Shown here: positions 4,599-49,638 of the stretch, piece by piece
Layout of the letters: every line of letters begins with the position of its first letter
Numbering within the stretch: the first letter of the stretch is position 1
Assembly: GCA_950295325.1 (NCBI GenBank)
Contig: OX485803.1
Span: 42,235,554 to 42,299,553 of the forward strand
Source of the DNA: Polytrichum commune
Taxonomy: Eukaryota > Streptophyta > Polytrichopsida > Polytrichales > Polytrichaceae
Direction: 5' to 3'
DNA length: 64,000 bases
Translations under genes and position numbers: made by a program
Notes under the pieces: generated by a model
The model's input: the letters and a program-made list of their open reading frames with translations, nothing else
Database searches by the model: none
What the model was told of the DNA's origin: nothing

Positions 4599-5060
4599 AG
4601 GGGTAGAATTTAAACACCCCTCATGAACTTTCGGGGGTGTTAGATCCGGGCTGGGGCAGCCTGACCAAAACCTGCTGCCTGCCCCGCCCAACTTCATAAA
4701 AAAGGCCGCTTGACTACAAATCCCATATTGAGTGCACTTCACCTTCAAGGTCTAAAATCCAAAATATATGTGCACTTCCACTTAACAAATAAGCAATTGA
4801 TAGGGATTTCACTTTCAGAAGTAAAACCATCAATGCAGTGTGAAATTAATTTGGAAATAAAAAACATTACAAAATCCTCATGAACATTGAGGGTATAATT
4901 TATGCGACTTACCATTCGAAATTGTCTGTGTCATTCTGAAATGACACTTAAATTAGTGTGATGATTTAGTATGTATATTTTATAATAATTTAGGTAATGC
5001 CTTCTACTTTACAAGTATTCATACATAATTAATTATAAAATGTACTTACTGGAATGAATT
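4599..5060 (+). mobile_element. Single diverged arm of the Mutator-type foldback element
   Basis: The stretch aligns by eye with the left arm of the palindrome at 18193-19495. Shared runs include CAAATCCCATATTGAGTGCA (4720s and 18350s), the following CTTCAAGGTCT-type segment, and the later stretch about fitting ACAAAATCCTCAT. The outer part is similar in layout, with a C/G-rich end and then a GCCCGCCC-like tract, but diverged. No second arm and no target duplication are visible, so it is a truncated or recombined relative. Confidence 0.6.
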
Positions 5061-6913: not shown

Positions 6914-9900
6914 ATGCGGAATGGTCTCATGGAGGCCACCGAGAAGATTATTGTGGGCAAAAGAGACGACTCGTTCGTATCATTCCCTCTTGCACCGATG
7001 AATGAATCCTCCTTTCTAAAGGGCACATCGTTGCACACTGGAAATAAACGATCACCAAGTCCGAATGCTGAGAAATGCACCGTTACTTTGATAAACCTCA
7101 TGGTCTCTCCTACTATGAACCTTGAAAAGCTTGCTGTGTGGAATAGTGACGACAGTGAAAAGATCAGGAGTTTGAATATTGAAAAGGCAGTGTGGATGAA
7201 AAGGCCACAGTTGGAGATACGGAGACCAGGGTACAGTGCAGATGAAGTTGATACGCCAGTAGTCAAACTAGTGCATCCTGTTGATTCGCATAGCAGCCGT
7301 TTGCATGTGAAACCGAAACTACAGGTAAGAATTGTTTTTGGTTGGCAAATTGCAAAGCGCCAGCATTTTTCTGGGATAGCATTGTCAACTTTGGGAAGCT
7401 CCAGATTTTGGGGGTGTTAGTAGTTTTAGATGTAGAGAAAAGTACGTCGTATGGCCATAATATTGTTCTGTTTTCGAATCTCAATCTGCTAAGTTCTTTC
7501 GGGCAATGAAGATTTTTTTCTTGATTGAAGCCGTGATGACAACATTTGGAAGTGGTCTCGACCTGTCATTGCAGGTGATAGTTTGGTTTGTATGGTTCAC
7601 ATTGACGAGGTTAAGAGTGTGCTCTTAAAGTATTGGTAAAATGGCTTGTTCTAGCCTTAGTAGGATGCTAAAGATATTTTATGATTCAGGTGAGGCCCAG
7701 TAAAAATTCCAGTGAAGGAAAGCATGGTAGATCAAAGCTTCCAAGATTTCTGCCTGCACACCGAGAGTCGCGGCCGAGGGATTCAAAAGGAGCAGTGTGC
7801 AGCCCAGCAGTTTATGAAGTGGTGGAATCATTACGGAGGTCATGGATCCAACATCGGAGCATTAAGGATGCAATGGAAAATTTTGAAAAGACTCTGTCAC
7901 CCCGTGATATTTCCTGCATTCTTACCGAGCTCCAACGACAGCACAATTGGCAATGCACTTTGGAGGTTTTTATCTCACCCTTTCATCCAGTCAATGGAAG
8001 CAACCTTGGTATTCCTTGGATAAACATCACAAAGTTTATCTTAGTACACTACTTCCATAAATTCAAAAGTTATTGCCAGTCAGATGATTACGAAGCCCTG
8101 TTTTTGAAACTGCTCACAACATATTGAAGTGGGACTGGGTGAATATTTCAAAGGGCCTTTTGTGTGGATGTAGCAAGTACAGAAACCATACATCAGGTTC
8201 TCTTTAATCTCATTATTTGGATGCCCTGAGTGCAACATGTTGACATGACAGCTTGAATAAAGAAATATTTTGGGGTATGTTGTTGGTTCAGGTGTTCTAT
8301 TGGATCAAGAAGCAGCCTTGGCATCGGCCCAACAGTCGATTGTACACACGGCTAATTGGATTCTTGGGAAGAGAGGGTCAGGTTAGAACAAGTCAAGGCT
8401 CACCTTATTTAGTATATCACTGCACATTGTTACATCTCTTGGTGTTGGAGGCTTCAGTATTGTTGGTTAGGTAGGGTGTCAGCTTTCTGTAATTTTTTGA
8501 ATAAAGTTTCAGTTGTTAATTAATAACCAGACATCCTTTTGTGAATGACACCAGGTAGAGCGTGCTACTGTACTCCTCCAAGAAATGTTGCTGGAAAAAT
8601 GTAGACCCGACCAGTATACATTCACAGCTCTCGTCAATGGATATGGCAAAGCAAGAATGTTGAAGGATGCACTAGCAGTGTTCAACTATATGAAAGAGTG
8701 CCCTGAGCCTGAATGTCAACCTAACACAGTGACATGCAACGCGCTTCTTGATGCACTTGTGAAAGGGGGCCAATATGATTTAGCTCTGACTACATTCTTT
8801 GATATGCGGAATGGCACCAATGGTCTTGAACATGGGTGTAAGCCAAACGTAGTTACATACAATATTCTAATTGATGCACTTTGTAAAGAAGGCTTTGTTG
8901 AAATTGGTGTACGAGTGCTCCATCACATGAGAAAAGAGGACGAGGACTATGACAGCAAGGTTCCTCCAAATTCAGCCACTTATAATACACTTATTAATGC
9001 TTGCGGGAAAATTGGGCTTTATGAGAAAGCTGAAGATTTGATGGAGGAGATGGTGCAGCATGGGGTCCAGCCTGATCGTATTACATACACAGCCCTGATT
9101 GATGCATATGGAAAGGCTGGGCTTTGGGAAGCTGCGGAGAACACATTCAAAGGCATGACAGGAGCAAGTGTTTCAGCTGACGTAATGACTTATACAGCTA
9201 TGATCGATGCCTATGCTAAAGAGGGTCTACATGACAAAGCTGAGGAGATTTTCAAGATGATGCAACAATCTGGGATTAGGCCAAACCAAGTCACTTATTT
9301 GTCACTTATTGATGCATATGGAAAGGGTGGCTTACCAGAAGAGGCTAAGAATGTCTTTGCTAAGATGCAAGCAGCAGGTTATGAAGGAAATGTGTTGATA
9401 TACAGTGCTCTTATCAACGCTTATGGAAAAGCTCAGCAACACAAGAAAGCCGCTGATATCCTGGAACTGATGAGGCTAGCTAGTTGTCAACCAAATCTCA
9501 TCACATATGCAGCTGTTTTTTCTGCCTGTGGCAGGTGCAAGTCTTGGGATGATGCCCTGGAACTTCTTCAAGTCTTTGAGGTGACTTGGATTCATCATAT
9601 GATTGTATCTTCTGGATTTGTGGCTACTGAAAATTATATGCTTATGAGATGAAGTAAAGGCCGATGGACTTCTTTTTGGTAGTCCCTTTTCTTTTGCTTC
9701 ATCCACAAACTTTGATTTGGTTGGCAATTGCTGCAACCTCATCCATAAGGCCACCACCACAGATGGTCAAGTTGTTCACGATGTTCTTGGAAATTTATCT
9801 CATTTCCCTGCATTCAGGTTTTCACTGAAGGCTGAACGCCCATCTTTTCCATGCGTCCAATGTGCGTGTAGCATGCAACAAATGTGGTCATCTCATGACC

Positions 9901-18192: not shown

Positions 18193-19495
18193 GGAGGACG
18201 TTAAGTACCCCCACGAACGTTTCGAGGGGGGGGGGGGAATATTCTATCAGGGGCAGGGTTCGCCATTTTTTCTGCACCCGCCCGAAAATTGCTGCCCGTC
18301 CGCCCGATTTCAAAAAAAAAATTGTACTTGGATTTTTGAAGGCTACTTGTCCACAAATCCCATATTGAGTGCACTTCATTTTCAAGGTCTCAAATCCAAT
18401 TTATATGTTCACTTCCATTGAGTAAATAAGCAATTTACTAGATTTCATTCTCAAAATGAAAACGCCAATAAAACATGTAATTAACTTGGAAGTCAAAACT
18501 ATTACAAAATCCTCATTAGCATTAATGTTATAATTTTTGTCACTTCCAATTCAAAGGGACTTTGTCATTCTGAAATCAAACTAAAATTAATTATATTTAG
18601 TTATTCTCGAATAATTTTATATAATATATAATATAGTTAATACCTTCTACTATCACAAAGTTTTCATATGCATTAAACTAGTTAAGTAAGATTGAATGCA
18701 ACTAAGTCTAATATATTCTGATTAATCCCAATTAAGCCCAATTAAATCAGAAAATATGCTTACCAAATTAATTAAGCCTAATTAATCATAAATTATATTT
18801 ACTGGAGTTAATGCCATTTAAATCATGATTAATTCCAGTAAGTACATTTTATAATTAATTAGGGTTAATTAATTTGGTACAAATATTTTCTGATTTAATT
18901 GGGCTTAATTAGGATTAATTAGGATTAATTAGAAAAATTATTAGACTTAGTTGCATTCAATCTTACTTAACTAGTTTAAATGCGTATGAAAACTTTGTGA
19001 TAGTAGAAGGTATTAAATATATATATATTATATTATATTATATTATGTATTAATATGTATTAATATGTATTAATATATTAAAATATATATTAAAATATAT
19101 ATTTTAGTCTGATTTTAGAATGACAAAGTCCCTTTGAATTGGAAGTGACAAAAATTATAACCTCAGTGCTAATGAGGATTTTGTAATATTTTTGACTTCC
19201 AAGTTAATTACATGTTTTATTGGCGGTTTCATTTTGAGAATGAAATCTAGTCAATTGCTTATTTACTCAATGGAAGTGAACATATACATTGGATTTGAGA
19301 CCTTGAAAATGAAGTGCACTCAATATGGGATTTGTGGACAAGTAGCCTTCAAAAACCCAAGTATAATTTTTTTTTGAAATCGGGCGGGCGGCCAGCAGTT
19401 TTCGGGCGGGTGCAGAAAAAATGGCGAACCCTGCCCCCTAACAGAATATTCCCCCCCCCCCCGCAAAGTTCGTGGGGGGGTACTTAACGTCCTCC
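18193..19495. mobile_element. Non-autonomous Mutator-type foldback element, 1.3 kb near-palindrome
   Basis: The element starts GGAGGACGTTAAGTA and ends with its reverse complement. A 9-bp target duplication ATTTCGGAG lies flush on both sides (18184-18192 and 19496-19504), the signature of Mutator-like elements. Almost the whole element is two arms of about 640 bp, folding around a short centre near 18840. Matching blocks in both arms include the C/G-run near the tips, the CGCCCGAT-type tract, CAAATCCCATATTGAGTGCA, and the AT-rich inner segment. No transposase is encoded. A transcript would fold into a long hairpin. Confidence 0.93.
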
Positions 19496-20288: not shown

Positions 20289-20773
20289 CGACCAACACAA
20301 CAAATCATGCACACAGCCCACATCTTACCCCAACAAGACTCGGCACAACAAAACCTCAACCAAGATACCATTCACCCAACTCAAAGAGAAGAAGAAAAAA
20401 TCCACTACAAAATTCAATGGTAACGCTCATGTACACCAAGAAAACATGCCACCACCACAAGCTGCATACGAGATCTAGATCCAACAACAACAATATCTTA
20501 CGCAACAACCAACATACCAAGCAATGCAAATATCCACAACATAACTTAGTGCCACCAATGGCATGACGGCCAATAAACAACATCACGATGGCGAAACCTT
20601 GGCCGCCACCTTACCAAGCCTACCAGCACCTTTTCACCCAATTGCACACCCTTCAATGCACAACGGAGAAGCGCAACTCCAACTTCAAGCTCCTCCAATC
20701 CACCTCCTTGCATCAACCATCCCCATTGCAACAATTACAATGAATAGCTCATCCCTAGCCTCCCAACAATGTG
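19831..20773. other. Unassigned repeat-like DNA with a (GA)n microsatellite
   Basis: A GA run lies at about 20251-20286. After it the + strand is poor in G and rich in CAA/ACC triplets, encoding Gln/Thr/Asn/Pro-rich short frames on + and Trp/Leu/Val-rich ones on -. It may be the far side of the neighbouring gypsy element or another degenerate retroelement. No domain is recognised. Confidence 0.3.
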
Positions 20774-21302
20774 TCGTGTAAATACCGATCGTGTGTCACT
20801 GCAGCTCGAGTACCAACCACCACTAACAAACAACACTAAAACATAGCAAGGTCACACATGAACAACACATCTCGACAAAGAAGGAAGAGAGTAGAACACT
20901 CATAATTGCTCTAAATCTCTCTTCAAATGCACACAATTAGTCAAGCTATCTTTCACTCCACCAAGGGAGAATCCAAGAGTGTAAGTAGAGGGAGAAGAAC
21001 TCAAGATTTATTGGAAAATCATACAATCTACACCTCACACAAACTCTCTCCACACACTAACTCACAAGACTTGACTTGGCAAGAATGCCAAGCCAAGGAG
21101 GAGGCTCCTCACTTTCCAAAACTAAGGTTCATCCATCCAACTCTAAATGGATGAAGCCCAACGGATAAGGTGCGGCCGCCGACGCCGCATACCGTGACAG
21201 CTATCGTGTAAATACCGATCGTGTGTCACTGCAGCTCGAGTACCAACCACCACTAACAAACAACACTAAAACATAACAAGGTCACACATGAACAACACAT
21301 CT
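20774..21302. repeat. 99-bp direct repeat pair flanking 331 bp; candidate LTR segment of the gypsy element
   Basis: 20774-20872 and 21204-21302 are nearly identical; both begin TCGTGTAAATACCGATCGTG and run to AACAACACATCT. The second copy sits right beside a minus-strand polypurine tract, where the gypsy 3' LTR should begin. The intervening DNA read on the minus strand contains an AATAAA site near 21012. I could not find the matching LTR at the other end of the element, so LTR status is inference. Confidence 0.55.
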
Positions 21303-22340: not shown

Positions 22341-23792
22341 TTAAGTACGATTGGTGGGAGCACCAAGTACCGAAGATCCTCGACACCGAGGACAACTCCA
22401 CTGTCCAGATGGTAGAGAAGTCAAGGGTGACCTCAAGCATGTCATGTGCCAACCACGTTGACACTAATCACACAAGAGCATAGTAGCCGCTCTTTTCTTC
22501 TCTCCACACACAAAAAATGGAAAACCCTCTGGCACGACGGCCAGTTCAGAATGAACTGTACCCTCAATGGGTAGATGACATGGGGCACAATTTTTGGAAT
22601 GCTCGCGACATTCCCTGCCATCCTTGCCTTCCAACAACAACAAACCACTCGGCAACACCTCCTTCACCTGAAGGATAGTGCGGCCCGCCCTGACATCCAA
22701 TGTCATGGACGCTTCACGTTGAAGATAAACATAATCCCCTTGCTGAAATCTCCGCAACTGAGGTTGGTAAGCACCACTGCGAATGCGTGCATAACGCAAT
22801 GTGTCACGGTGCTGAGCAATGGACAAATTCTTCATAGCCATAGGTATGGCTCTCTGAAAAAATTGAGCCCGCTCCTGCAAACACTCTGCCCAAATGTTTG
22901 GGTCATCTAAGTCCACAATAGGAGCTAAGTTTTTCCGAATAGAACTCGGGAGAATAGGCTCACGTTCGTACAATAACTGATACGGGCTGTAGGATGCCAA
23001 AGAGGTCTGCCTATTAAATCGATAGCCCATAGCAATCCAATGCAACATAAGGTCCCAATCCCGGTGGCTTCCCCGAAGTAATCCATACTTCCTCAAGCCA
23101 TGTTTGGTTGTCTGAACAACCCATTCAGCCAAGCCATCTGCCTCCGGATGATCCCGAGAGGTGGTACGGTGATCTATGAGCGCCTCAGTGCACAACTCCT
23201 AAAAAACACCAAGGAACTCCCTCCCTTGGTCCATCAACACCTCAGCTGGTGCTCCAAAACGTGCTAACACACGATCCAAAAAGGCGGCCACGGCCAACTC
23301 TACAGAATTTTGGGGTAGAGCAACAAGCTCAACCCACTTGCTAAAATGCTCCACCATTACCAAAACGTACTTTGCTCCACGTGGTGTAATCACCAACAGT
23401 CCTGCAAAGTCCAACGACCAACGGTAGCCCAATCCCATGATAGGTAAGGGCTGTAACTGAGGTGATAAAGTGTTAAAGCTAGACCTGACCCGGTCACAAA
23501 CTTCACACCTCCCGACATAGGCAACCACCTGCTGATACATGCCAGTCCACCAATATTGGCCACGCAACATCGAATGTGTCATGCGTATGCCAAAATGGCC
23601 CAGTTCCTCGTGCACTTGTCGCACCAAGGAGGCTCTCTGATCCGGCCTTGGGACAATACATCTTGTCCCATCCGGCCACAATCGAAATAACAAACCGCTC
23701 TCCCAACGGAACCTTATTATTCGATGTCCAATCATATCCCATTCCATTGCCGAAATAGACAAAGGAAAGGTACCCTGTTGAAGCTTATGCAA
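22341..23792 (-). pseudogene. Gypsy integrase with C-terminal PHD finger
   Basis: The N-terminal zinc-binding module has HEELGHFG and CEVC. The catalytic core shows WSLDFAG, VLMDQGREF and the glutamate in HPEADGLAE, 34 residues after the second Asp. A GPY/F-like stretch is followed by a Cys/His cluster at 22382-22520. It ends in LLCD, then C-x4-H-x2-C (CQRGWHMTC), 14 residues, and WSCPRC, the spacing of a PHD finger with its Trp two residues before the last cysteine pair. The first expected cysteine reads Phe (PFFVC). In-frame TAG codons interrupt it at 23196-23198 and, inside the finger, at 22464-22466. Integrase inserts element cDNA; a PHD finger normally reads histone H3 tails and could bias target choice. 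Not functional in this copy. Confidence 0.85.
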
Positions 23793-23868
23793 TACGGGAA
23801 GATCTTTCCATATATCCGCAATAGCTTGAGGCCGATCAGTCTCATCATCCGAGCCCTGTATCGGAATC

Positions 23869-24657
23869 TCAATAGATGCACCAGAAAATAAAGTGAGGTA
23901 AGCAGCCGCGTGCCAACTTGACCCCGATCAAGTCCTCATCCGAAGGACTTGGATTGCGTGAGAGTCCATCTGCATCCATGTTGGTAATCCCAGCACGGTG
24001 TACCACCTCAAAGTCATACTCTTGGAGCAACAACGCCCATTTGGCAAGCTTGCCAGTAAGCTTATCCGACTCCATGAGCCACCATAATGGCTGATGGATA
24101 GTCACCAAAGTAAAGTGCTGACCATAAAGATACAGCCGAAAGTGGGCAATAGCCCATACCGCCGCCAATGCTTCTCCCTCGTAGGACGAATAATTAGCCT
24201 CCGCCGTATTATTGCTTCGCGAAGCGTACGCAAGAACATACTCCCGGCTAAAATCATCCTTCTAAGTAAGAACTGCTCCCAAACCCAATGAACTCCAATC
24301 CATATGCAACTGGAAGGATTTGGAGACATCCGGACGTCGCAGCACTGAATTCGCACCTAGTTTCTGCTTCAATATCTCAAATGCTTGCTGCTACTCACGA
24401 CCCCAAGTCCAAAGTTGGTCCTTGCTCGTGAGAATGGTGAGAGGCTCAGCGATCAAGCTAAAGTTCTTGACGAATCACCGATAGTAATTTGCCAAGCCCA
24501 AGAATACATGAAGTCTCGGCACATCGACCGGTGTCGGGATCTTCTGCAAGGCATCCACCTTAGTTTGCTGCACCCCAAGACCTCCTGGAATAATCATATG
24601 ATCTAGATATGCTAGTTGGTCATGGAAAAACTTGCACTTGCCATGGTGCAAGGGCAA
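23869..24657 (-). pseudogene. Gypsy RT end (thumb) and RNase H domain
   Basis: Continues the reverse transcriptase in another frame after a frameshift near 24660-24680. 24475-24657 holds the RT-RNase H connection ending LGLANYYR. RNase H follows: MDWSSLGLGAVL, NYSSYEGEALAAVW, QPLWWLMES and HRAGITNMDADGLSRNP, interrupted by stops. The aspartate usually found before HQPL is replaced (TIHQPL), so the site is damaged as well as broken. RNase H degrades the RNA template during cDNA synthesis. Confidence 0.85.
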
Positions 24658-25436
24658 TCCCCACCGCCGTAATCGCTAAAAACGGCTTGAAGATGCCTTA
24701 CATGCTCCTGAGGTGTTTTGCTGAAGATGATCACGTCATCAATATAACACCGAGCAAAAGGCAAGCCAGAGAGGACTTGGTCCATCATTCTTTGAAACTC
24801 AGTAGGCGCATTCTTGAGGCCAAATGGAAGAAACTTCCAATGGTATAGTTGATCATTCCCATCATGATCAACTCCCGAAAATGCAGTTTTTACCCGATCT
24901 CCCGTAAATAATGGGAGCTGGTGATATCCGGATCTCAAGTCTAGGGTGCTAAAGACCCGAGAAAATTCTATGGCATCGAAGAACTCCTCCGGGATTGGCA
25001 TGGGATACCAATCCGACTTGGTCTTCCGATTAACTGGACGGTAATCCCCACACATCCGCTTCTCCGTCCAATTGCCAAAGATACCTTTCTTCAATGGCAT
25101 AACCATAGCACAAGCATACTCCCCGTTGGTAAGTTCGATTAGCCCTGCTGCCAGGAGCTCTCGGCAACGAGCCTGAACACCAATCCGCTCGGAAACACTG
25201 AGCCTGTAAGGTCTCCAAAAAATGGGATGGTCGTCCTCCAACTGAATGTGGATGGGTTTTCCTTTATAACCTTCAAGATCTTGAAGGCTAAAAGCGAAAC
25301 ACCTACGATACGAGCGAATAAATGCTCGTACATTCCGTGCCTCAGCACCAGTGAGATGAGGGCCTAATTCTAATGGCCAATCATCAAACTCTGTAGTCTC
25401 CCTCTCCACCAAAGGAGAACTACATGATGCTGGCAC
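24612..25436 (-). pseudogene. Gypsy reverse transcriptase
   Basis: The frame holds palm and finger motifs of a Ty3/gypsy RT: MCGDYRPVNRKT, FSTLDLRSGYHQLPL, FLPFGLKNAPTEFQRMMDQ and the active site CYIDDVIIFS near 24736-24747. It copies element RNA into cDNA. It is in the same frame as the methyltransferase and protease upstream, separated only by stops (TAG at 25449-25451). The frame is lost after the HVRHLQAVF stretch near 24670. Confidence 0.92.
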
Positions 25437-25727
25437 AAACTCTAATTGCTAATGAGAGGAGGGGGCATTAACCATGCCCCCAGTCTCAGTGCTAGCACTA
25501 GAGTCTAACATTTCTTCATCACCACCAATATGTGATGACGAAGCTACCACTGGAGGCGAAGAAGCCGAAACAATGTAAAAATGTTGAGCCCGAAGCTCGT
25601 CCATCACATGCTGCTCGAATTGATAAATTCGTTCGGTTCTCCAACCATGGCGTGAATTCCTTCCTCCATGGATGTGGACCGCTGTGCCCCCTGACCATAG
25701 TCCTCTGCCCCCAGAGACAACCACTGG

Positions 25728-26712
25728 TCACCATGATGCCTTTGCAATGAAAGGCATAAACCAACAGTTCACACCATGGTATGAAGATCCATGCATGGCT
25801 TAGCCCAACACAAAGCGGTATTGGCCCTCAGAAAGGCCGGGAGCTACGGTGGTGCCAGTGTTGACTCCCATGGCACGCTCCCGTTTGTCAGCCAATGGTT
25901 TGGTGTGGGTTTGAGTGTGAGCATCCCACACCAGACCCGGCCCCCGATCGCGGAAGACGAATGACTGTGGAAACGTCATAAAGGTGGGAAATGCTTTCCG
26001 TGGTGCCTTCACTTTGTTGACCAATGCCAACGGGGGTAAATCATCTCGAACAACCGCCAAAGAGGTCCAATGTGGATCCAAGATGTCATCCACCTTTTGA
26101 TCCAAAGGTGGAGGTACTGCAGAAAATGTTGCAGCTAAAGTAGATGACGGTGCGAGGTTGGTCAAAATCCACCGAGGCCGGTGGGCATAAGAACCAATGC
26201 TCGCGGCATCCACAAAAATGAGATCTCCAAGGTATGGACGAACATAATGATCGCCTTGCAACACCTTGTCCCGGGAGTCTCCCAACAAAGGTACATTCTC
26301 AAAAATATACCGTGGAACGGAAGGTTGGTGGGAAAATCACCACTGCATGAGGCGGATGAGGTCCCAAAATAGACTAGACCTGGGATCCTCTAGTCCGCCG
26401 CCTGCTCTAGCACGTGAATGGCCCTGGCATGGCCATCCTACAATCACCATATCCACCGGACCCAAGTGTCGTAAGTCGGCCTCACTGATAAGTGTGACAT
26501 CACGAGGAAGACGTGAAAAACATCCACGAATGGCAGTTGGGTGTAACTGATGTGGATACAACACCATCAACTGGTGAAAATGGTGACGAGCCACACAGGT
26601 GGATACTTGAGAGTTGTCCACATAGACATATTGTTTGACCGTGAGGCCAGCCTCCAATACAGCCGCTAATCATGTGCCGATGCCCCCAAACAACTCCACC
26701 AAAGTAATCCCA
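25728..26712 (-). pseudogene. DNMT3-like cytosine-C5 DNA methyltransferase domain inside the gypsy polyprotein
   Basis: Motifs in canonical, unrearranged order: I, LVELFGGIGT (near 26670-26705; SAM binding); IV, VGWPCQGHS (near 26414-26440; catalytic Cys); VI, FENVPLLG (near 26281-26303; catalytic Glu); VIII, SYAHRPRWI (near 26166-26194); then a target-recognition-like stretch and RERAMGV with VLG (26 residues apart; IX/X-like region). SSLFWDLIRLM before motif VI, AHRPRW at VIII and the C-terminal pattern resemble DNMT3 more than DNMT1/CMT. It is not circularly permuted like DRM. PCQ rather than PCN at motif IV is DNMT1-like. Stops: TGA 26670-26672, TGA 26337-26339, TAA 25800-25802, TGA 25728-25730. 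The frame equals that of protease and RT, so the domain is part of pol and not a separate insertion. It would methylate cytosine in DNA. Confidence 0.88.
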
Positions 26713-27713
26713 GTGTCTGGAGGACGCCACAAAATGGGGCGTGCCAACGTGGATGGACTATCCAGTATAAATGGTGTGGTATGACTGAGAGAGAGGACAA
26801 TGTCGTCACACCTGTGGAATAACCCGGCGGAATCATGCCACGGAGGTAGAGGGTCCTTGGGATGTCGCACCAAGGAATGCCTAGGTGCCATCTCCTGTGG
26901 GTCTTCAACACTCCCCATGAATGCTAATGACTCCTCCAATAATGCGGATCCATGAGGCAATGTATCCACCATAGCACTGCATCCAAAAACCATGGATAAT
27001 GGTGCGATGGTGGCGGCCGCTGCGAATGCCACAAGAATGAGTTCCCTACGACCGTCTCCAGCCGACCAATCTGGGCGGATCCAAGCCTCCTCAGTCCAGT
27101 TGTCCAACCCAAAACCAAGAGGGTAAAGTGCTTGCTGACCAACTAAAATGTCATAGTTGGTCGCATCCGTCACCGCACACCTAAGAAGAAGAGGTGCGGC
27201 TGATTCTGCAGGCTTCAATCGAAAGCTAAGTTGTAATGGCTCCCGAGTATAACCAGTGGCCCATTCCACGTGGCCAATAGATGTAACGATGGTAAATGGG
27301 CAAGGAGCCAAGTCCTTGGCCATCAATCGCAATTCCTGCGTAAGTTTTTTGTCGATCATAATAGGTTGTGCTCCTGAATCCATCATCACATACTGGGGAG
27401 CAACTTGAATAGGGTTGCCTCCAGCCCGACTGACCATCAAAATGCCGGAATCATTCACCATCCGTACAATGCCAGGTTGAATGCCTCGACGCTCGCGTGC
27501 AGGTCGAGCAGCTACATCTGAAAGATAAGCTGCACCTACGGAAGCTGGTGAATCATAAGATGAGGTTGCCTCCTGGTCATCCGAGGTGTGTTCGTCAAAA
27601 GACGCAATGGCCTCCTTCGCAAGCCTCACCCGTCGTTTGGCGGCTTCCTCAGGATCCTCCGTGGTAGGAAGGTCAGCGGTTACTTGAGCCACAGTCAGAG
27701 AAAAGGGGATTGC
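26713..27713 (-). pseudogene. Gypsy aspartic protease region
   Basis: An open frame of about 330 codons from the CACTA insertion to the methyltransferase. The retropepsin active site reads MMDSGAQPIMID (DSGA at about 27369-27380), and NYDILVG further on matches the second conserved strand. The N-terminal part is acidic and low in complexity, probably a gag-protease spacer. It cleaves the polyprotein. It joins the methyltransferase without a gap, frame intact until the TGA at 26670. Upstream it joins gag if the CACTA element is disregarded. Confidence 0.85.
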
Positions 27714-28141
27714 CACTACTAGAGATTGTGTACAATCTAGACATGTAACAAGACATTTATTAAAGTAAACAAAGACGTGACCTAATAGCATATATTACTA
27801 GAAAACATGTTGTCTACGACATGTCTTGGGAGACCATGTCCTACACCCCATGGATTGTCTATTTGGACATAGCGAATATGTTTAGGACCATTGCTTATGA
27901 TGTCTAAATATACTAAAAGTTTTACGGGCTCCACACTAAATTATTACTTAACGTTAAAGCGTGCATGTATGTGTAGGGCTATCATTGGTTGATATGTTGA
28001 ATAATGAGTGGTCTTATTTTATAACAAATGAATGCCATTTAAAAGAGATATCCACCATTAGTAAGTCCAATCCTCACCTCCCGAGCCTCGCCATCTATAA
28101 GTACCTATAGTACCAAATGCCTAAACACTTACCTAGTAGGC

Positions 28142-28225
28142 TAAGCCAAGGGCGGGGGCCAAGGGATTTGATCCTTGAACCTCTTGGCTCCCACATAGAG
28201 ACCTTAGCCACTAAGCCACCACTCC
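28142..28225 (-). mobile_element. tRNA-derived SINE head inside the CACTA element
   Basis: The minus strand reads a pol III A box TGGCTTAGTGG, 34 bases, then a B box GATCAAATC, with GGTTCAAG just before it. This is the arrangement of plant tRNA-derived SINEs of the Au type. It is not an intact tRNA gene, since no acceptor stem pairing is evident. The tail is unclear and may extend to about 28050. Confidence 0.7.
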
Positions 28226-28254
28226 GCGCATGATATATTAAAAGTATTTAAAAC

Positions 28255-29030
28255 ATTTGTATATAGAGGCCCCAAGTTATTTTTTATTTTTTATTTACTA
28301 TATACAATATAATATCAACTATATACGGCATATATTATTCATTGTCTATTATTTACTGCTTATAATTTATTATCCAGTATTTGTTGTATACTGCCTATTA
28401 TTTATTATTAAGTGTCTCATATTTGCTATTTATTGCCTCGTATTTACTGTTTATATTATCATATTTACTATGTACTGCCTAATATTCACTGTTTATAGTT
28501 TGTGATTTACTATTTATAGTATTTTATTAAATATATTATCTTTATTATCTTTATATTTATTATTTATTATTTTCAGTATGTTATTATTATTTACTGTATA
28601 TAATATACTATTATCTATTTATAGTATGATATTTAATAGTTTCTATTTATAGTATATTATAACTATTAATGGTATGGTGTTTATTATTTTTTATTATCTT
28701 TATTTTTATTCTTTTCAGTATGTTATTATTATGTACTGTATATAGTATATTTTTTACTATTTATAGTCTGATATTTAAATTTCAATATTCATAGTATATG
28801 AGTACTATTAATGGTCTTTTGTATATTATTTATATTATTATTTATTATATATAGAATATTTTTATATATTTTTAGTATGCTATTATTTATAGTATGCTAT
28901 TTTTTTAATAAGTTCTATTAATGGTGTGCTATGATTAGTTACTATTTATAGTATATTGTTTTACTATTGATGGACTTTTATTTATTATATATTGAAAATT
29001 ATCTACTATTTACTATGTACATGATTTTCC
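28255..29030. repeat. AT-rich degenerate short-unit repeat
   Basis: About 780 bp made almost only of variants of TATTTACTATTTATAGTAT. It looks like a decayed minisatellite within the CACTA element. Not coding. Confidence 0.8.
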
Positions 29031-29271
29031 ACATACGTCCTAAAAATTACCGACCATAATTCATACAATCTATTGGACAAATTGTCTGATTGTTTATAGG
29101 ACGATGTGAGTCGTCCTATAAACAATATCGGGGCGTCAATGTGTCCACAATGACTATTTTCCAACACTTATACTAGAAACATGTCGATTTCTTTTTTTCC
29201 ATGAAATGTTGGTCCAATTAGCACATGCATGCTAAAATACTGTACTAAAAACCCTTGTTTCTCTTGTAGTG

Positions 29272-30946
29272 TGCCTTCCCTTCTAAATTCCTACCTGCTA
29301 GGTGAAAAACCTTAGCTGGTGGAATATCAGATGACGACCACTCCATCGCCGTAAACAAAGGGGTGTGCAACACTTTGGATGCCAAAGTGTGTACCACATT
29401 GATCGCCGGATTCGAAGCTTCCAAGCTCGAATGAGGAGCACTAATAGATTGGGCAGCATCAGTCAATTCAAAAGACAATGGCATACGTGCCTGGCCAATC
29501 TGATCCGTGGGACTATTGTCCCGAGCACATAAGCTGTCCACAAACTCCCCTGTGGTCGGAGGCGTGCCTCGTGACACAGTTCGAGCACGTGTCACCGTTG
29601 TGAAACTCACCACCTGTCCTGAAGCTCCGAACATAAAATAATCTGGAGTGGATGAACTAGCCTTAGTGCCAGAGGTAGAGGGTGAGTCCAAAATTTGGCT
29701 GGATGACGCCAAAGTTTTGAACCTCTCCTCCAAGACACCAATCTTCGCCTCCAACGTTTTTTTCCGTTCGGAAAGAAGACGTTTCTCTGGATGGAGAGCG
29801 AAGCAGTTCTCCACCGCGTGATTGTTCCGCCCACAATGGGAACACTTCAACTGTTTGGGTAATTGATTACCCGTCCCTTTTGCTGAACCCTTAGCGGGAA
29901 CAAATGGTTTTTGTTTTGGAGTAGTGACGGTTTGGGCTTACCTTTGCTTCGAAGGACAATCATTTTTAGCATGGCCCGCCTGCCCACAAGACCAACAATG
30001 CAAGGTTTTGTCCACCTCTGCCTCTGCCAACCCCGCAGCCGCAACCGGAACCTTCCGGGATCTGCTAGAATCCACTAGCATGGACACCAAGTCGTGGTAA
30101 AGTCATGGCGTCGTGCTGACATAAGGCACAATCACACTGCTCAACAATGGCGAAAGCTTCCGCAAGTGTCACTCGGCCACCATGATCCATGATGATCATG
30201 AGCAAAGCTAAGTCAATGAGGCGTTTCTCAATCTTTGACAAAAACACCTTTACCAACTGGCTTTCGGCGAAAACACCTCTAAATTCCCTGGCAAACCTCG
30301 CTAACCTCGTGTATATGGTACGAGGTGTGTCATCTTTCTGCCGTCGAAAGTCCTGGATACGCTGCATTTGATTGCGGCGGAAGCCTCCATATTCCTCCTC
30401 CAAATGGAGTTGAAATTCATGCAGAAGATCAAAATTTGGCGGAGCTCCTAAAGAAGCTAATGCCGCCTGGGTAGCCTAGGCATAACGTGACAGTGGAAGA
30501 ATGGGGCTCGAAGTACTCGCCGCAGCGGGAGCAAAACCCTTAGCCCTCGGCTCACTAGGAGGAGTTCCCTCCACATCCATCACATAACCTCCCTCCGATA
30601 CCTTTGGCTTAACTTCAGGAATGGCCATCAAACTGGAAGTTGCTCCTTCCTTCAATGCGGACACCAATTCAACCCGAGTCTCCCAGTACCGCTCCACCTG
30701 GCGCAGCTCTATCCAATGAGCATCCGTCCATTGCTCATAGGTCTGGAGAGCTTCGTGCTCCAAATGTTGTGGCAGAAGCTCGAACGCATACCAATCGTTA
30801 AAGTTGGTATTACGTTGATGTTTCTCCCTCATCCATGTTTTGAACCGAATTTTCCAATCTTGAAGGGAAATGGTCCCCGCTCGACCAGAAAGTCGGTCCC
30901 GGATGTCGCCTCGCGTCTCCTCCTCCATCTCGTCAAATGATCCCAC
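29272..30946 (-). pseudogene. Gypsy gag with two CCHC zinc knuckles
   Basis: The start is taken at the end of the open frame near 30946; the first ATG is about 15 bases further in. The capsid-type part has SLQDWKIRFKTWM and FLSKIEKRLIDLAL, with one stop at 30476-30478. A one-base shift near 30100 changes frame. Two nucleocapsid knuckles follow: CWSCGQAGHAKNDC (about 29962-30006) and CSHCGRNNHAVENC (about 29802-29850), with a stop between them. The frame then runs to the CACTA insertion at 29271; discounting 1,561 bp (element plus one TGC) brings it into the protease frame. Gag packages the element RNA. Confidence 0.85.
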
Positions 30947-31160
30947 CCAAAGGACGTGAGACCGAGTGGCAGTCCCCCACGACGAAGTAGGCTAAAAAGC
31001 CTCGTCGGGTGCTACCACGGGTTCACTGTCCAAAAGGTCCGAAAATCGACCTTACGATGATGCCGGAGACAAATAACGATAATATTGGCTCCGAGTTGTA
31101 ATCATAAATTCGCAATGGATTTGGTCACTAGAGCCAACAACCTAAACTAATGTGATATCA

Positions 31161-33560
31161 GGGTAAAATACAACATGCACCTGCAACCACCACCAAATTT
31201 TATGGTCTGCTGGTCATCAATTCAGCCTCACCATAAGGGAATACAAGCACCGCCCACTTAATGCACACACAAGGGTCTCGTCAGACATTACTCCGACCTC
31301 ACCCCCACAGTACTTTATCACAAACTAGGACAACACAAAAATGGGGCAATGTTGGAAGACTCCAACACAACAGTTCGCCACGGGGGAAGGTACCACAACA
31401 AAATACAATGAACAATGCAATAACAACACTGGATTCTCTTCCCCAAAACAACACTTAAACAAAAATTGAAAGCGACCGCGACCATCCGGCACCCGCCTGC
31501 GGTTGGTGGTCAAATTGAAGAGCCCCTGTTGCTTAAGAAAAAGAAATGCTACCTATGCACATCTCTCATCTTCCCATTGCAACCTAAGAATCCACTCTTA
31601 CAAGAATGCCGGGAATATATGTTGACAAACACAATTCGACTTTAATAATAATTTATTTTACGCCAAACGGAAATTCCACATGCCACCCAATCTCCAATGG
31701 CATTCCCCTCAGAAATTTCGTACAACACAACCCCTAAAAAGAAATCCCAAGTATTTTTAATATTTCATAAGAGCTTAGGTTTTCTTCCTTGTATCCTTGA
31801 GCCCAAGAAATTAACCTCTTAGAGAGAAGAGAAAAATGAGAAGTTGAAAGGAAATATAAACTTTTTAATTAATTTAATTAAAATAAAAAATCGGGTTTTT
31901 AATTAATTAATTAAAACAACAATAAAAATAAAAATGATTATCAACGCGTAATCGATTGGACTTGCAAACACCCGGGTCCCAACCAATTATGCCCAAATAT
32001 CTCCCCGATCCAAGAATTGATTTAATCCACCCTAGCTGAAGGAGGGGGGATTTAGTTAATGTAGCTGTACCCTGGCATGCAGGTACGCTAGCAGGCAGGT
32101 TGCTGCCGCAGGCAGCCGCCGGGGACCGACAGATGACGCTAACAGCCGTCGAGGGACCTCAACAACGCTCAACCTGGATACACACTCTTAGCACATACAT
32201 TCCTCCCATACTTTCAATCCTCCACCCTTCAAAGTAACCCCCAAAAAGAACTCCTACGCCTCACTAGACATGCTAAACTCCTCAATACATACCATACCCC
32301 CCCCCCACCCCATAAACACCCTAATAGTTCTCCATAAACCATGTCCCCCCAAAATGCAATCTAACCCTCCGAATAGGCTTCCCAACTAGGAGTCTCACCA
32401 TATTAAGACGCATTCAAGCTCTCCAACACCTGTTTGAACCCCCAAACACTCATTGCCCTATCAATCGAACACATCACATAATAACCAGATGACAACATCA
32501 AATCTAACAAATTGAACAACATCACACCCTCACAATCCACACTCCAACAAATATTCCTTGCTCGTCCATTTGACATCATAAGAGAATCCCTAAAAATCAT
32601 AGAACCAATCCAAGGTTCCTCAAACAATCCACACCAAAACCCTAGTCCACCAAAAATCCAACTTACAAACCCAACCTCATATATATACTTTGACCCCATC
32701 ACATGCATAACATGAAATTGTGGACATATCAATACAAGAATACAAGACATCCATCAACTTACCACCGTAAATGAAACCCCATCATTACTCATATTCATAC
32801 AAGAAACAAAAGTTCCCAAAGATATATCCACAATTTTATAGATGGAAAGATAAAGTTTCCATCTATAAAATAATATACAATGCAATCAATGTTCTTACAT
32901 GCATAAGACGACCTTGCATCCAATACGCTCCCACAAGGGTGGCCTACTCACTATAGTACACAAATCCATCGCCTTTTTGGGTAATATCTTAAAAACTACA
33001 ACACCCATTGAACTTACACCTTGTCTACAAATCATTACAATCACCAACAAACCCCTTACCCCCTTACCCCCATACCTTTAATCCATATATGTACACTTAC
33101 ACATGACAAAGATACACCCTTAATACCCCTAATTTGACAAACAATAAAACAACCCATGACAAATACCCATCCCATTTTCCATTACTTACTAGAGACTTTA
33201 ATAGAGATATTTTCCTTATGTGGTATCACAACACACAATCCCTTACGCCACCAACAAATGACAATAACAAATAGCAATTATTTACCAAGGAATTGCAACC
33301 CTCACGAATCTCCAACATGACACCATTTACCAAACAAGGGGGACTCAACTATACTCACACTAGCTTAATAGACAAATACTACATCCCCCACACCCATGCA
33401 ACCAACCATCAACACGCAACTCCACCTCAACTCAAACCATTTCTTGGTAACTCTAATCCCCCCCCCCCCCCCCGGTCCATTGTCGGAAGGACCATTACCA
33501 CAAACAACCACATCCCTCTCCCCTAAAACTGGCTAGAAGCGCAAAAAAAAACTTAACATC
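31161..33560. other. Degenerate repeat-like DNA; no supported gene
   Basis: The gypsy 5' LTR should lie here, but no match to the opposite end was found. 31930-32010 shares a short ATTATGCCCAAA-CTCCCC segment with the SINE-like copies. From about 32160 to 33560 the + strand is strongly depleted in G and has several C runs (32300, 33460). A phrase like TSLIDKYYIP near 33360 vaguely recalls an L1-type endonuclease, too weak to call. Confidence 0.3.
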
Positions 33561-42525: not shown

Positions 42526-43389
42526 TGTGGGAGTGTGCAAGCTTCTTTCCATCCCATCACTCATGAGCAATGTCAAAAGTTTTATCTAGCACGTTCATTC
42601 ATATCCAAGTTGTTTTAGTTTCTAAAGGAGGGTGGACAGATTTTTTATCTATAAGTAGATTTAGGTTACAAAATTGGGTTAATGTATATAGTTCTCTTCA
42701 AATCATTGTTTCTTCATGTATAGTTTTGCAATACATGAAACTTTGGAAATGATGTATTAGACTATGACTATTAACTTAGATAGGTAAAAGTTGGTACATT
42801 CTTGTTTTTGTTTGCATGACAGTGTGTGTGAAAATTGATGTAGTACTCATTGACTCATTTTTCTATACAATCTAAGTAACAAAGTTTTAAATTTACCCTT
42901 TTAAGTTTATCGGGCCTCGGAAATCAACCCAAAGGCTTTGGATTTATGTAATGGGACTCAATTGGATTGAATTAAACCCCAATTGCCTACCTAGTGGCCA
43001 CCCCAAAATGGCCTTGGAGGCCTCTTTGTCAAAAGCTAAACTTCTATCATGTTTCCTTCCACATCTAAAACTTTATTGCCAAATCCAACCATATGTAACC
43101 TACACAATGTAACCTCACGTTTACAATGTGTAGGTGGCAAGCACCTTGAAAGTTTTTAGCCGTCCAAGTATCTCTAGCTAGGATATTAAAAGTTTATGTG
43201 ATGAGGTGTGAAAATAATGGAATTTTTTTCTCCCTAATTTCTTATTGAGATCCATACTTTTGGTTAAGTGTATTGAGTTTGGTGATACACCATTAGCAAG
43301 GTATCAAAAACTAAAACTACAAGCAACTTACAAATCCCTGAATGCTGCATTTAAAAAAAAAAAATTGGAAGCCCTTGCTATGGAAACCA
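42526..43389. other. Intergenic, nothing recognised
   Basis: No supported gene, RNA or repeat. Confidence 0.35.
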
Positions 43390-43761
43390 CACTACACATG
43401 ATATTTAGTGTCATATGGTATTTTATGTCTGCATGGTAAATGTTTGGATGGCACTGCTTATGAATAAGTGAACAAATATTGTCATGGATGATGGATGTGT
43501 TCATCCACTGGCCAAAACCCTACCTGCTCTTGTCAACAACTTGCGATGAAATATTGTCATGGATGATTGAAATCTGGATGAAAAATCACTTGGTAAGTGA
43601 TAGTAATTGCAACAATGTTAATCTATGATTCCCTCAAAAAATTACAAGGAATGACAAATAGTGTTGGGATAACATTTGGTGTTGGTGACAGTGCACTGCA
43701 GTTTGCAGTAAGCATTGAGCAAAACAATTAGAATTGGTGGCACTAACTATCATATTTAGTG
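43390..43761. mobile_element. MITE with CACTA...TAGTG ends, copy 1
   Basis: About 370 bp, colinear with 61465-61823. Shared blocks include TATGAATAAGT, TATTGTCATGGATGA, TTCATCCA-TGGCCAAAA, CTTGTCAACAACT and CATATTTAGTGTAG at the right end. Ends are CACTACACATGATATTTAGTG and TATCATATTTAGTG. No clear target duplication. Confidence 0.7.
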
Positions 43762-46486
43762 TAGACATTGTTGGATCAAATCCTTATCTCTTGACATAAG
43801 CACTTGTGGACCTCCCCCCCCCAAAAAACTCCTAGAAGCACATGTGTCACGACGAGATTGGATGATGTGCTCATCATAGTAAAGAAAACCTACATGATCA
43901 ATGAAAGAATCGTTCATTTTGACCTCTTATATCTTTCGCATCCCAACCCCGATTACGAAACCCGACATGACAAACCCTTGTGAATCACAAAAAATGTTCA
44001 TGGAACGAGACGATTTTTGAGCTGATCCATTGACCACAAACGACTCGGGAGTTGAAAATGCCCACAATAGGGCCACATACCTTAAGGAGTGGGTGAATTT
44101 GCATGCACGCCACGAACCCGTGGCCTATTCAATGTTGGAGTATTGAGGCCGTTTACATCATGTACATTCATCCGATACGAAGGCGTTCATCCAACCATGT
44201 AACCAACTTGGAAAGATATATTTAGAGTGACAGTCTGGCAATCGTTTCCCAAATAGAAAGAAAAGGTCGTTTCGTTTTGATGACGAGGCAACTACTGAGT
44301 CCTCCCTCTATGCTTCCCGTGGGGGATCATTCGAGCTCAACTGTAATGTAACTACCTCATGTCACCATGTGACACCTCCCTTGAGGAGCTCGCCCTTATT
44401 ATTACCCCATCATAGCAGCCAGTACATCGCAACATGAAATCTAGCTAGTCGCCACTCATATGTTTGAATGAAATACTTAAGAAAAGCGTCCCTTCCCAGT
44501 GAGTCCAAGTCCTGAAACCCTCTGACGAACCCGAGCTCCTCATTACTTCACCGAATTTCTCCAATTGAATACGCCAGTCGTATGTGTCGCCCAGCGATTG
44601 AAAGTTTGCTTTGTCGTCGGACTAATAAGAGATAAATTCGAGGAGGAGTGGTAGAGATAACAGCTGGGTCTTGAAAGTTAATGCGGGCTTGACTACATCA
44701 AAGTGCATATCTTAGAGTCATAAGCTTATATATTGGCCTCTTTGATTGATGAAAGAAGAAACCATAAAGATTGGAACTTTACAATGATGAATCGTTCTAA
44801 GGTAGGAAAACCATGACTCGTGAGAATAAGGTGATTCGCATTGAAGATTTGGTCTGACAATCATGCGATAATTTTCCAAGATAGACGAGAAGGATTCATG
44901 GAGAATGCAAGTCGTTTCATATATTTTTTATACAAAAAAAATGCAAGTTGTTTCATATTGTTCTGCCTTATACAAAAAATGCTACAGTTTTTCAAAGTGG
45001 AAAGTTGTCCAAACCCCTACTCGTTCACTAGATTCTCCCTACACCGAACACGGTAATCCGCATTTCCATACAGAACATCGCATAAATCGGTTACCTCGTG
45101 AGTACATTAACACTTGACTCCCATTGGCTACACTAAGTGTACACGCATTGGAGTTGCCGCCGAGCCATGATGCGTTTTAAAAATGGCACTTCACCATTAT
45201 GACGGCTGTCTAGTGCACGGGTAGAGGGTGGTTAACGGGTCATGGTATTTCTACCTTATCAAACAACAACATCATGTGCAAATCGGGTGATAATTGATCG
45301 TACTTTCATCGATGAGTGCAGAGAGGGGGTCTTATTGCATACGAGCATACGTCTCATCCAGTCAGGTCAGAAGCTTGAACTCTTATAAGTTTTTGACATG
45401 ACATTTGCAGCAAAAGAATCTCTTTTGCCTCCTTTCTCACTGCAAAACTCGTTGGACCATGATAATGGAAAATGTAGGCATGAAAGGAGGCCTTTTGGGG
45501 ACCTCGAATTCCATGCTCACTCTTACATTTTTTTTCTTCTTGATGTAGACCAAAGTGGTCTTAGGATGAGTTCAATGGTCAATCACATGTTTTAGAGGAG
45601 CAGGGGACGACTTCATGGTCCACGATGTGAACAACCACTAAGTTAACTACGTGAGGACCTCACCGAGTGCAATGCCGTTGAGGAAGATATGAATGTCTAA
45701 ACTCTATCTTGTATTGGGTTTGTAGTTGGCCGAGGAAATGAAAATGCAAACGTATATATGACAATGACAACACCACCGGGGGCAGATTCTTCTTACCACA
45801 TATGAACTGATGTGAGTGTAAAAAAAATATTATTTGAGGCACTAGCGTACACATGTACATAATTAGGAATGCTATGCACCGAGTTTTAACACGCTTGATT
45901 TTTGTGGGCGAGGTGGGCAAATTAGGAGGTGGCAACTTGGGCAAATTAAGGTAGAAATTTTGAAGACGGTGAATGACAACTACACATGGAGGTGGACCCT
46001 TCATTACGTATGAGCTAACGTGAGTTTATGAAGGGGTATTATTTGAGTACGTTTGAAAAGGCTATTAATAATGTTGAAGTAAAGGTAGATGTACAAAAGG
46101 GGCCCTACAATTTAAAGAAAAATTGACAATAGATGTGTTAGTTTCATTCATTGTTGTCATATGGTAATAGTCCTTAATCATTACCTTTCCCATTCTTGTT
46201 GGGGTTGGCATTTGGGTTCTAGGTTTGCACAAACTGGAGGCTCTTGAAGTGCTCAAGGGCTTCCTTCAATTTTGCACTCTGGATTGTGGCTAAGTTATAA
46301 TGCTCTTGTCTTTGTTTGCTTGATGCAACCGTTGCATTACATGCTATAGATGACAAAACGTTCAACGACTTTCTCAATGGACGTGAAGTTGGAGTTTATA
46401 TGTTATAAATCCTTATTCAATTCAATAATATTATATTGTATATGTCATGGAGGCAGTTATTACATTTCATTGTTAAACATTCTATT
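43762..46486. other. Intergenic; weak internal duplication only
   Basis: No gene is recognised. Around 45750-46060 two segments resemble each other (ATGACAA-AC, ACATATGA/ACGTATGA, TATTATTTGAG), a diverged direct duplication about 240 bp apart. Confidence 0.35.
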
Positions 46487-48360: not shown

Positions 48361-49302
48361 AGCCCTCGGGATAGCAACCAGATGCGTTGATTATGAGTTT
48401 GCAATATACTTAGATCCACACATTGTTATGTCTATTTATGTGCTAAATTACATGGATCTTGTTGCCACTACAAGGTAGAATTTTAAAATCCCAAATCGAT
48501 TGCTATATTAGGCTTGGGACCCCTGAAATACATTTGTAGTCACAACAAATTACACTAAAGTGTCTTATTAATGTGGGCCACAATAGTTTTCTAGAACCCA
48601 CATTAATATTCAATCCCAAATGTCTAGCTTAAAACCAATGCATGCCCCATTACTTGTTTAATAGAAAATCCATGTGGACGACTATTTGATTCTATGTTCC
48701 TTTTGTTCTTGAACTAGTACTCAAGTCGTTGGTCGGAAGTCTCCATGAGGACTTAGGGGAAGACCCAAGGTCTAGGGCCCACATTATTTTCACCATGATT
48801 TGATGATTAGAGTGGCGCACATCAATATTTCCCACATTAAATTTCCACTCACACTAATAGGACACTCTACTATAGTGGCAACAACCCATGATCCTTGCAA
48901 TGTGACCGACTGGAAAATGTGGATTTTGAATAAGGTGATATTAGGTAGGGTCACTTTTGACACAACCAACTAAACATGCTAGCATGTAGCTCCAATACCG
49001 ATTACGGTTTTAATTGAATCTTTAAGATGCTTAGGCAAAAACTTACAACACTCTTGAACGAGATCTTCATTGAGGTAGGCAATGCAAGGATGTGGATGAG
49101 CACAAGCATGTTGTCTTGGTTTTGAAGTTGTGTTGTGTTTCATGTGCATGGCATTGCTAGTGAATGATATTTGATATACTATTGCCATGCATACTATTCT
49201 ATGAGCTCTTCCATGGTTGCCATGTTTTCTCGAGTCAAAATATGTGGACCTTTGCATGTTTTCGTCCCATGTTTACCTCGTTTGGTTCCTTGGGAGTCAA
49301 AC
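48361..49302. other. Intergenic, nothing recognised
   Basis: No supported gene or repeat. Confidence 0.35.
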
Positions 49303-49332
49303 CTTTGTTTGTTTGTTTGTTTGTTTGTTTGT
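49303..49332. repeat. (TTTG)n microsatellite
   Basis: About seven TTTG units upstream of the 75-bp tandem repeat. Confidence 0.9.
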
Positions 49333-49413
49333 TACCTTGGTATACTTACCGTCCTTATATTTCGACACAATCAATGAAGAAGGTTCTTTCACTTCATCAT
49401 GGTCACGTGGTTT

Positions 49414-49638
49414 CGGCCTCCTCGCTATCAAACATAGTCTGTCTTCATGCTGGAATACTATCAAAATTTGATGGAGATCCTCATTATTCGGCCTCCTCGC
49501 TATCAAATATAGTCTGTCTTCATGCTGGAATACTATCAAGATTCGTTGGAGATCCTCATTATTCGGCCTCCTCGCTATCAAATATAGTCTGTCTTCATGC
49601 TGGAATACTATCAAGATTCGTTGGAGCCTCTCATTATG
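49414..49638. repeat. 75-bp tandem repeat, three units, open on both strands
   Basis: Units start CGGCCTCCTCGCTATCAAAY at 49414, 49489 and 49564. Units 2 and 3 are almost identical; unit 1 differs at a few sites. As 75 is a multiple of three, 25-residue repeats appear on both strands: a + frame 49164-49649 (161 codons; unit phrase SLSNIVCLHAGILS) and a - frame 49297-49725 (142 codons; unit phrase RILIVFQHEDRLYLIARRP). The minus frame is charged and more protein-like. I recognise neither and cannot say that either is expressed. Confidence 0.85.

Follow-up and report, generated by a model that had tools for sequence, protein, structure and literature searches.

A Ty3/gypsy retrotransposon family in a land plant with a predicted DNMT3-class cytosine methyltransferase ahead of a leaky-type stop codon

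Retroelements that code for their own DNA methyltransferase (MTase) have been reported from dinoflagellates and a charophyte alga, a precedent correctly given in the original prediction for the DNA treated here, which had been made from its letters alone (PMC5890265). The closest described element is KnitGypsy-Dnmt3 of the charophyte Klebsormidium nitens, a Gypsy element with an unpermuted Dnmt3-class MTase in its coding region, for which conserved key MTase residues and purifying selection have been reported, and whose repeats, ordered A-coding-B-A-B, are called DIRS-like with no mechanism given in the main text (PMC5890265). That text speaks of a Pol open reading frame (ORF), mentions neither a PHD finger nor a protease and uses "stop codon" only in another context. 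The dinoflagellate elements of the same paper, SymbioDIRS-Dnmt3, whose MTase is active on CG in yeast, and SymbioLINE-Dnmt, are a DIRS element with a tyrosine recombinase and a LINE, respectively, and are described there as independent acquisitions (PMC5890265). Here we describe an element of the same general kind from the land plant Polytrichum commune, found in a stretch of 64,000 nucleotides (the window; GCA_950295325.1, contig OX485803.1, 42,235,554 to 42,299,553): the minus strand at 20.8–31.5 kb holds a decayed Ty3/gypsy element with an MTase between protease and reverse transcriptase (RT). It shares with KnitGypsy-Dnmt3 the Gypsy affiliation, the Dnmt3 in the polyprotein and the A-coding-B-A-B repeat order, a comparison made by text and figure legends rather than by sequence; the listed relatives of its MTase include no protein named Klebsormidium. 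The element is genuine and falls within a kind already known, Gypsy with Dnmt3. New, as far as searches of the open-licence literature show, are the land-plant hosts, the predicted Gag-level placement of the MTase at a leaky-type stop, the PHD finger, a second domain layout and termini pointing to circular integration. Those searches turned up no account of such an element in a land plant, nor of one whose integrase has a PHD finger; the prediction likewise knew of no land-plant lineage.

The C5-cytosine MTase motifs that the prediction had read on the minus strand are where it placed them: FGGIGT ends the frame 26670–27794, GWPCQ lies in the piece 26340–26669, and ENV, AHRPRW and RERAMG...VLG all lie in the piece 25803–26336. 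The 110-residue middle piece matches PF00145 (DNA_methylase, E 1.1e-8, above the curated cut-off); the 178-residue piece alone gives no Pfam match and matches 53 database proteins (best E 1.3e-94, 84% identical). A public contig with open versions of the element's parts, L001, matches PF00145 in its MTase at E 6.8e-12. Motifs I, IV (PC), VI (ENV), VIII (RxR), IX and X are present together with the catalytic Cys, and the catalytic residues are near-invariant in 62 aligned MTase rows (Cys in 60, Glu in 62, Asn in 61). By sequence profile (about 1e-24) and by fold (Foldseek and VIA-align on the predicted structure), DNMT3 appears to be the closest class, so that the DNMT3-like layout which the prediction had noted is borne out and a DNMT3-class assignment is supported by sequence and model. 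Animal DNMT3A/B/C, the best profile and structure matches, have the same fold and motif order, but are only about 20–25% identical; the element has PCQ where DNMT3A/C have PCN, and neither an ADD nor a PWWP domain appears in a Pfam scan of L001 ORF1. Plant DRM enzymes have a DNMT3-derived catalytic core in common with the element, but a DRM identity was rejected: DRM has motif X before motif I, whereas the element MTase runs unpermuted from I to X.

The host genome itself contains two DRM-like loci (L031, L032), in each of which motif X precedes motif I, as well as two DNMT3-like exons (L103, L104). The retroelement MTases share 17–21 of 64–65 residues with the latter over one short piece, and 24–26 of 58–62 residues with mammalian DNMT3C over the same piece. 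On this comparison, and with relatives in Closterium, in liverworts and in this plant, the suggestion that the element captured a host de novo MTase finds no support for this plant; a recent capture from this host's DNMT3 is likewise unsupported, the comparison covering one short exon per host gene. Among 120 listed matches of the 121 from a profile search of proteins with the MTase, there is no named host DNMT3.

The element is far from solitary. L001, of 9285 bases, is filed under a cyanobacterial metagenome-assembled genome (AVDCRST_MAG81), probably as contamination; its content is that of a eukaryotic-type retroelement, of a plant or alga kind, and its ends overlap by 127 bases, as would be expected if the assembler had closed the element into a circle. 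One of its frames codes for gag, protease and MTase, and the next, directly after the stop, for RT, RNase H, integrase and a PHD finger. A protein search with the L001 MTase gave 36 matches, among them five from Marchantia polymorpha, one from Calypogeia fissa and one from the alga Closterium. The assembly of the window spans 408 Mb in 64 contigs, of which seven (C1–C7, 42–78 Mb each) make up about 406 Mb. All 119 scored candidates (of 580) from a genome search with the L001 MTase are matches, stop-free over the match in 68 and with a stop in 51, and 15 of the 68 sit in open frames of 1386 residues (hand counts). A search with the window's own MTase piece, with 150 of 483 candidates scored, recovered itself, 138 copies with at least 66% identity and, at 59–60%, 11 copies of the other subfamily (hand count); the 138 and the 119 have 14 places in common, so that the two lists together give at least 243 places (by hand). 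These copy counts are lower bounds. The copies are spread over the seven chromosome-size contigs, which rules out bacterial contamination or a chance match, and scans of viral contigs returned no relatives. Many copies have the MTase inside long open frames, as a part of the element, and the paralogs do not show it as a separate insertion with ends of its own.

A reading of the MTase as a passenger or as an artefact of assembly has a negligible chance of being right: the window copy itself is broken, but the 119 scored genome copies, the relatives in Marchantia, Calypogeia and further contigs, and the near-invariant catalytic residues contradict it. Between the window and L001, dN/dS is 0.16 and 0.13 for the MTase, 0.09 for RT and 0.04–0.05 for the integrase, and synonymous sites are close to saturated. 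Eight young copies give a pN/pS of 0.35 in the MTase and 0.26 in RT.

A domain scan of 89 proteins showed two arrangements. Full-length relatives of L001 are gag-protease-MTase, while P0086 and P0087 are RT-RNaseH-MTase-integrase-PHD; P0084 and P0088 have the MTase upstream of the integrase, and the PHD finger is present in all four of these proteins. In a tree of 64 MTase rows (made by a quick method, with long branches flagged and the root on two partial mammalian DNMT3 sequences on a long branch), the 8 rows of the second layout (SH-aLRT 99) stand apart from the 51 of the first (SH-aLRT 96), the window MTase groups with P0005, P0099 and P0106 (SH-aLRT 99), and P0077, P0081 and P0109 fall outside both layout clades. 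The identities of MTase, RT, integrase and PHD finger rank broadly alike across relatives, which fits, without proving, one old lineage in which the MTase changed place. The two layouts would then be the same MTase lineage, with the enzyme either on the gag side or between RNase H and integrase.

The window element opens with a remnant of the leader and a broken gag; about 1.4 kb of AT-rich sequence then precede the protease, MTase, RT, RNase H and integrase, and the PHD finger is followed by the B-A-B repeats:

31173..31528, minus strand: 5' leader remnant of the element, two stretches 61–63% identical to the L001 leader (8278–8555)
29245..30991, minus strand: gag in three broken open frames (30476–30991, 30065–30475, 29245–29937), resembling by eye the gag part of L001 ORF1
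27795..29244, no strand assigned: AT-rich stretch inside the element at the gag/protease junction, with a 142-nt repeat and, by eye, a tRNA-like stretch (repeats 28542–28825, 28288–29012)
26721..27794, minus strand: linker and aspartic protease (MDSGAQP), the frame running on into the MTase start; 54% identical to L001 over 302 codons
25803..26720, minus strand: predicted DNMT3-class C5-cytosine MTase domain, motifs I to IX in order (PF00145 on the middle piece, 53 homologs, catalytic residues, tree)
25443..25451, minus strand: TAG-CAATTA, in-frame stop separating MTase from RT in a UAG-CARYYA context; L001 and 41 of the 48 genome copies examined have such a site too
24612..25448, minus strand: reverse transcriptase (RVT_1, E 2.4e-21)
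23869..24261, minus strand: RNase H (RT_RNaseH, E 9.5e-24)
22518..23927, minus strand: DDE integrase (zinc-binding domain, core, C-terminal part) with one stop at 23199–23201 (Integrase_H2C2, E 5.3e-17; rve, E 8.8e-12)
22380..22517, minus strand: PHD finger at the C terminus of the integrase, one internal stop at 22464–22466; 76% identical to the L001 PHD finger over 55 residues
21202..21305, minus strand: repeat B1, beginning within a few bases of the purine tract AAGGGGGGCAT; 102-nt direct repeat, 98%; homologous to L001 6903–7087
20876..21199, minus strand: repeat A2, with GC at 21201–21200 between B1 and A2; junction ACACGATAGCTGTCACG from 21209; other copies arranged alike
20772..20875, minus strand: repeat B2, the element's 3' end (...TTTACACGACA) followed by host CATT; 102-nt direct repeat

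The first gag piece of the window element has a weak DUF7893 match (Pfam, E 0.0022, under the curated cut-off), and L001 ORF1 is uninterrupted across the gag/protease junction, where the window element has the AT-rich stretch. The window protease matches gag-asp_proteas at only E 0.095, and its L001 counterpart matches Asp_protease_2 at E 7.8e-4, just under its cut-off. Three stops (26670–26672, 26337–26339 and 25800–25802) break the MTase frame, and by eye, against the relative P0001, the frame is lost between about 25800 and 25700, leaving motif X out of frame. Searched within the window, no A1 repeat was found upstream of the element, and self-comparison of the window found no pair of long terminal repeats (LTRs), which fits the A-B layout seen in other copies together with the missing A1. 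The window gave no match in Rfam at the gathering threshold, nor in a tRNA scan.

Beyond the element, the genes of the window include ones for a fatty acid desaturase, a RALF peptide and PPR repeats, a content that points to a land-plant host; the window also has a Copia remnant at 53358–54836 (RVT_2, E 7.2e-26, within 53862–54833). It further contains a 1.3-kb palindrome at 18193–19495 (85% over its full length, its arms reaching 96% complementarity; 4702–5023 is related to it), a short in-frame tandem repeat at 49164–49725 that creates repetitive open frames on both strands, and a repeated stretch of about 380 bases, 80% identical, at 43386–43764 and 61461–61826.

The original prediction had assigned the MTase to pol on the ground of a frame shared with protease and RT. 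By coordinates the frame is indeed shared by all three in the window, but the MTase closes the gag-protease ORF (ORF1), and RT-RNaseH-integrase-PHD follows in the same frame only after a UAG in a readthrough context. The sequence TAG-CARYYA separates MTase from RT in 41 of the 48 copies examined; it is the first stop after the MTase in 27 of 28 copies of one subfamily (the first rows of the genome list from the L001 MTase) and in 14 of 20 of the window's subfamily (mostly copies with long frames), another stop preceding the site in the remaining seven. The hexamer contexts are TAG-CAATCA in L001 and TAG-CAATTA in the window, with differing flanking bases, and only 8 of the 1927 TAGs in the two sequences, the two junctions included, have the form TAG-CARYYA. 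The in-frame TAG at 25449–25451, directly before RT, is not decay, because it recurs at the same site in most copies. Since this UAG stands in a readthrough context before RT, the MTase should be made at the Gag level, not simply as part of pol. The leaky stop of tobacco mosaic virus is of the same type and has the same CAR-YYA hexamer, and stop suppression is named for the soybean element SIRE1 in the same source (PMC2194720); peculiar to the present element is that the leaky-type stop lies between gag-protease-MTase and RT-integrase.

It is quite improbable that the conserved TAG is an ordinary end of ORF1, with RT made from a spliced or separate message and no readthrough. A Marchantia gene model (P0076) does join ORF1 and RT into one product, and readthrough is itself predicted from sequence context; but ORF2 keeps the same frame, opens immediately behind the stop and lacks any Met ahead of the RT core, with none before residue 117 of L001 or residue 115 of the window. 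Among the 82 proteins extending to the MTase end, 74 lack RT, RNase H and integrase (many of these are fragments) and 8 have such domains. Gag-level packaging would also place the MTase beside genomic RNA, and DNMT2, a tRNA enzyme, is related to it (profile E 3e-8); that its target is RNA (the genome or the primer tRNA) rather than DNA is nevertheless very improbable in view of the far stronger DNMT3 match.

The termini were analyzed in 20 copies, with 5' and 3' pieces retrieved separately. The layout is A-internal-B-GC-A-B, in full TG[A]-internal-[B]CA-GC-TG[A][B]CA, in 15 of them and A-internal-B, without a second A-B, in three, two (L078 and L080) being unresolved; in all 18 copies with both ends found, 4-bp target duplications are identical on both sides. 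The element starts with TGTCACG and ends with CGACA, and B1 and A2 meet at GACAGCTGTC, a B-A joint found also in L001 and, with one base different, in the window. A Ty3/gypsy element with plain LTRs was rejected on these layouts, identical complete LTRs at both ends not being found. A DIRS identity was likewise ruled out by the rve integrase and the 4-bp duplications, as DIRS elements have a tyrosine recombinase and no target duplication; the order of protease, RT, RNase H and DDE integrase, together with these same two features, is that of Ty3/gypsy. B1 directly follows the purine tract, and A1 passes into internal sequence at a fixed point. These being the usual limits of an LTR, the LTR arising from reverse transcription would be B-GC-A, while integration would cut at CA and TG within it. 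The ends at which the element integrates are thus internal to the LTR, at GACAGCTGTC, and fit integration from circular cDNA.

The two expected cDNA ends are joined (A2-B2) in 15 of the 18 resolved copies, and the joint is at a constant point within each subfamily in 10 of the 11 joints read exactly; those of L070, L082, L092 and L100 (4 of 15) could not be placed by exact matching and were excluded, as was the A1 context of L066. Of 14 copies measured, 13 have an A1 and A2 that are more than 99% identical, while in L070 the figure is 94.6%, with gaps; most of the measured insertions are thus recent. It is possible, if on the unlikely side, that A-internal-B-A-B was formed in reverse transcription itself, the linear cDNA already being TG[A]...[B]CA without any circle. 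This would account for there being a single circle-opening product, the mirror form A-B-GC-A-internal-B being absent from the 18 resolved copies; but B1 right after the purine tract and the fixed end of A1 are the usual LTR limits, and the A2-B2 joint lies where those ends meet. In addition, the joint of L076 lacks the last ~19 bases of A and has shared bases there, as end joining would leave. For retroviruses, a two-LTR-circle model of integration, with a palindrome cut in circular DNA, was abandoned in favour of linear DNA; relative to that model, the palindrome of the present element lies inside the LTR and is conserved. Integration from a circle may also explain the "DIRS-like" repeats of KnitGypsy-Dnmt3, which have the same order.

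At its C terminus the L001 integrase has a PHD finger with the C4HC3 zinc-binding sequence (PF00628, E 4.3e-10, above cut-off), which matches PHD fingers in the PDB at E values down to 2.4e-14.

Taken jointly, these features are read here, with rather more confidence than doubt, as a high-copy Ty3/gypsy element with a Gag-level MTase that methylates its own cDNA, circular integration, PHD-guided insertion and copies that are tolerated or shielded. Most ribosomes would stop at the UAG to give Gag-PR-MTase, and a few would read on to give the full fusion; the MTase would be packaged at the Gag level into the particle where the cDNA forms, and there, we infer, it may methylate the double-stranded cDNA of the element itself. 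The two cDNA ends would join (A2-B2) to give a circle, end joining being the simplest reading, the integrase would open it at the palindrome GACAGCTGTC inside the LTR, and the PHD finger would steer insertion through histone H3 reading. The likely benefit, which is the weakest step, would be that a copy, on arrival, already bears the marks of silent plant DNA and so is either tolerated or shielded from defence. The sharper picture, of a retrotransposon that packages both a DNMT3-class MTase and a histone-reading integrase, and whose already methylated circles are opened at the palindrome by the DDE integrase and inserted in circularly permuted form, is tentative and somewhat short of an even chance.

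Several observations weigh against this joint reading. The 48 junctions and 20 termini come from related copies at the top of the lists or from their long-frame part, and are not an independent or random sample. Some relatives do without the stop: P0077 and P0081, outside the window's clade, have MTase and RT in a single frame. The CpG observed/expected ratio is 0.67 for the element and 0.57 for the whole window, with no CG-methylation footprint, and this undepleted CpG gives no support for long-term CG methylation of the element. If a two-LTR circle is cut at either LTR, the mirror form should arise as well; its absence in the 18 resolved copies is unexplained, and the three A-internal-B copies could arise by B1/B2 recombination. 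Histone reading by the PHD finger is putative only. Finally, while two SymbioDIRS MTases were active in yeast, those of KnitGypsy and SymbioLINE were without activity, a result called inconclusive there (PMC5890265).

The same enzyme could also confer the opposite benefit, restraining the element by methylating new copies and limiting its own copy number to the gain of both host and element, an option raised for the described elements (PMC5890265). With many copies decayed, 51 of the 119 scored having a stop in the matched MTase, such self-restraint has something in its favour, but is unlikely: the 119 scored copies and the near-identity of A1 and A2 in 13 of 14 speak of recent and abundant transposition, so that any restraint would be weak at best.

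Genomic parasites are normally the targets of DNA methylation; here a land-plant parasite with many recent copies carries a methylating enzyme itself. As it does so in a host with DRM-like and DNMT3-like loci of its own, the question of whether a transposon gains by self-methylation becomes testable. The termini, in turn, suggest circular-DNA integration by a retroviral-type integrase, a route considered and then dropped for retroviruses, and the relatives in Marchantia place a laboratory plant at hand for tests.
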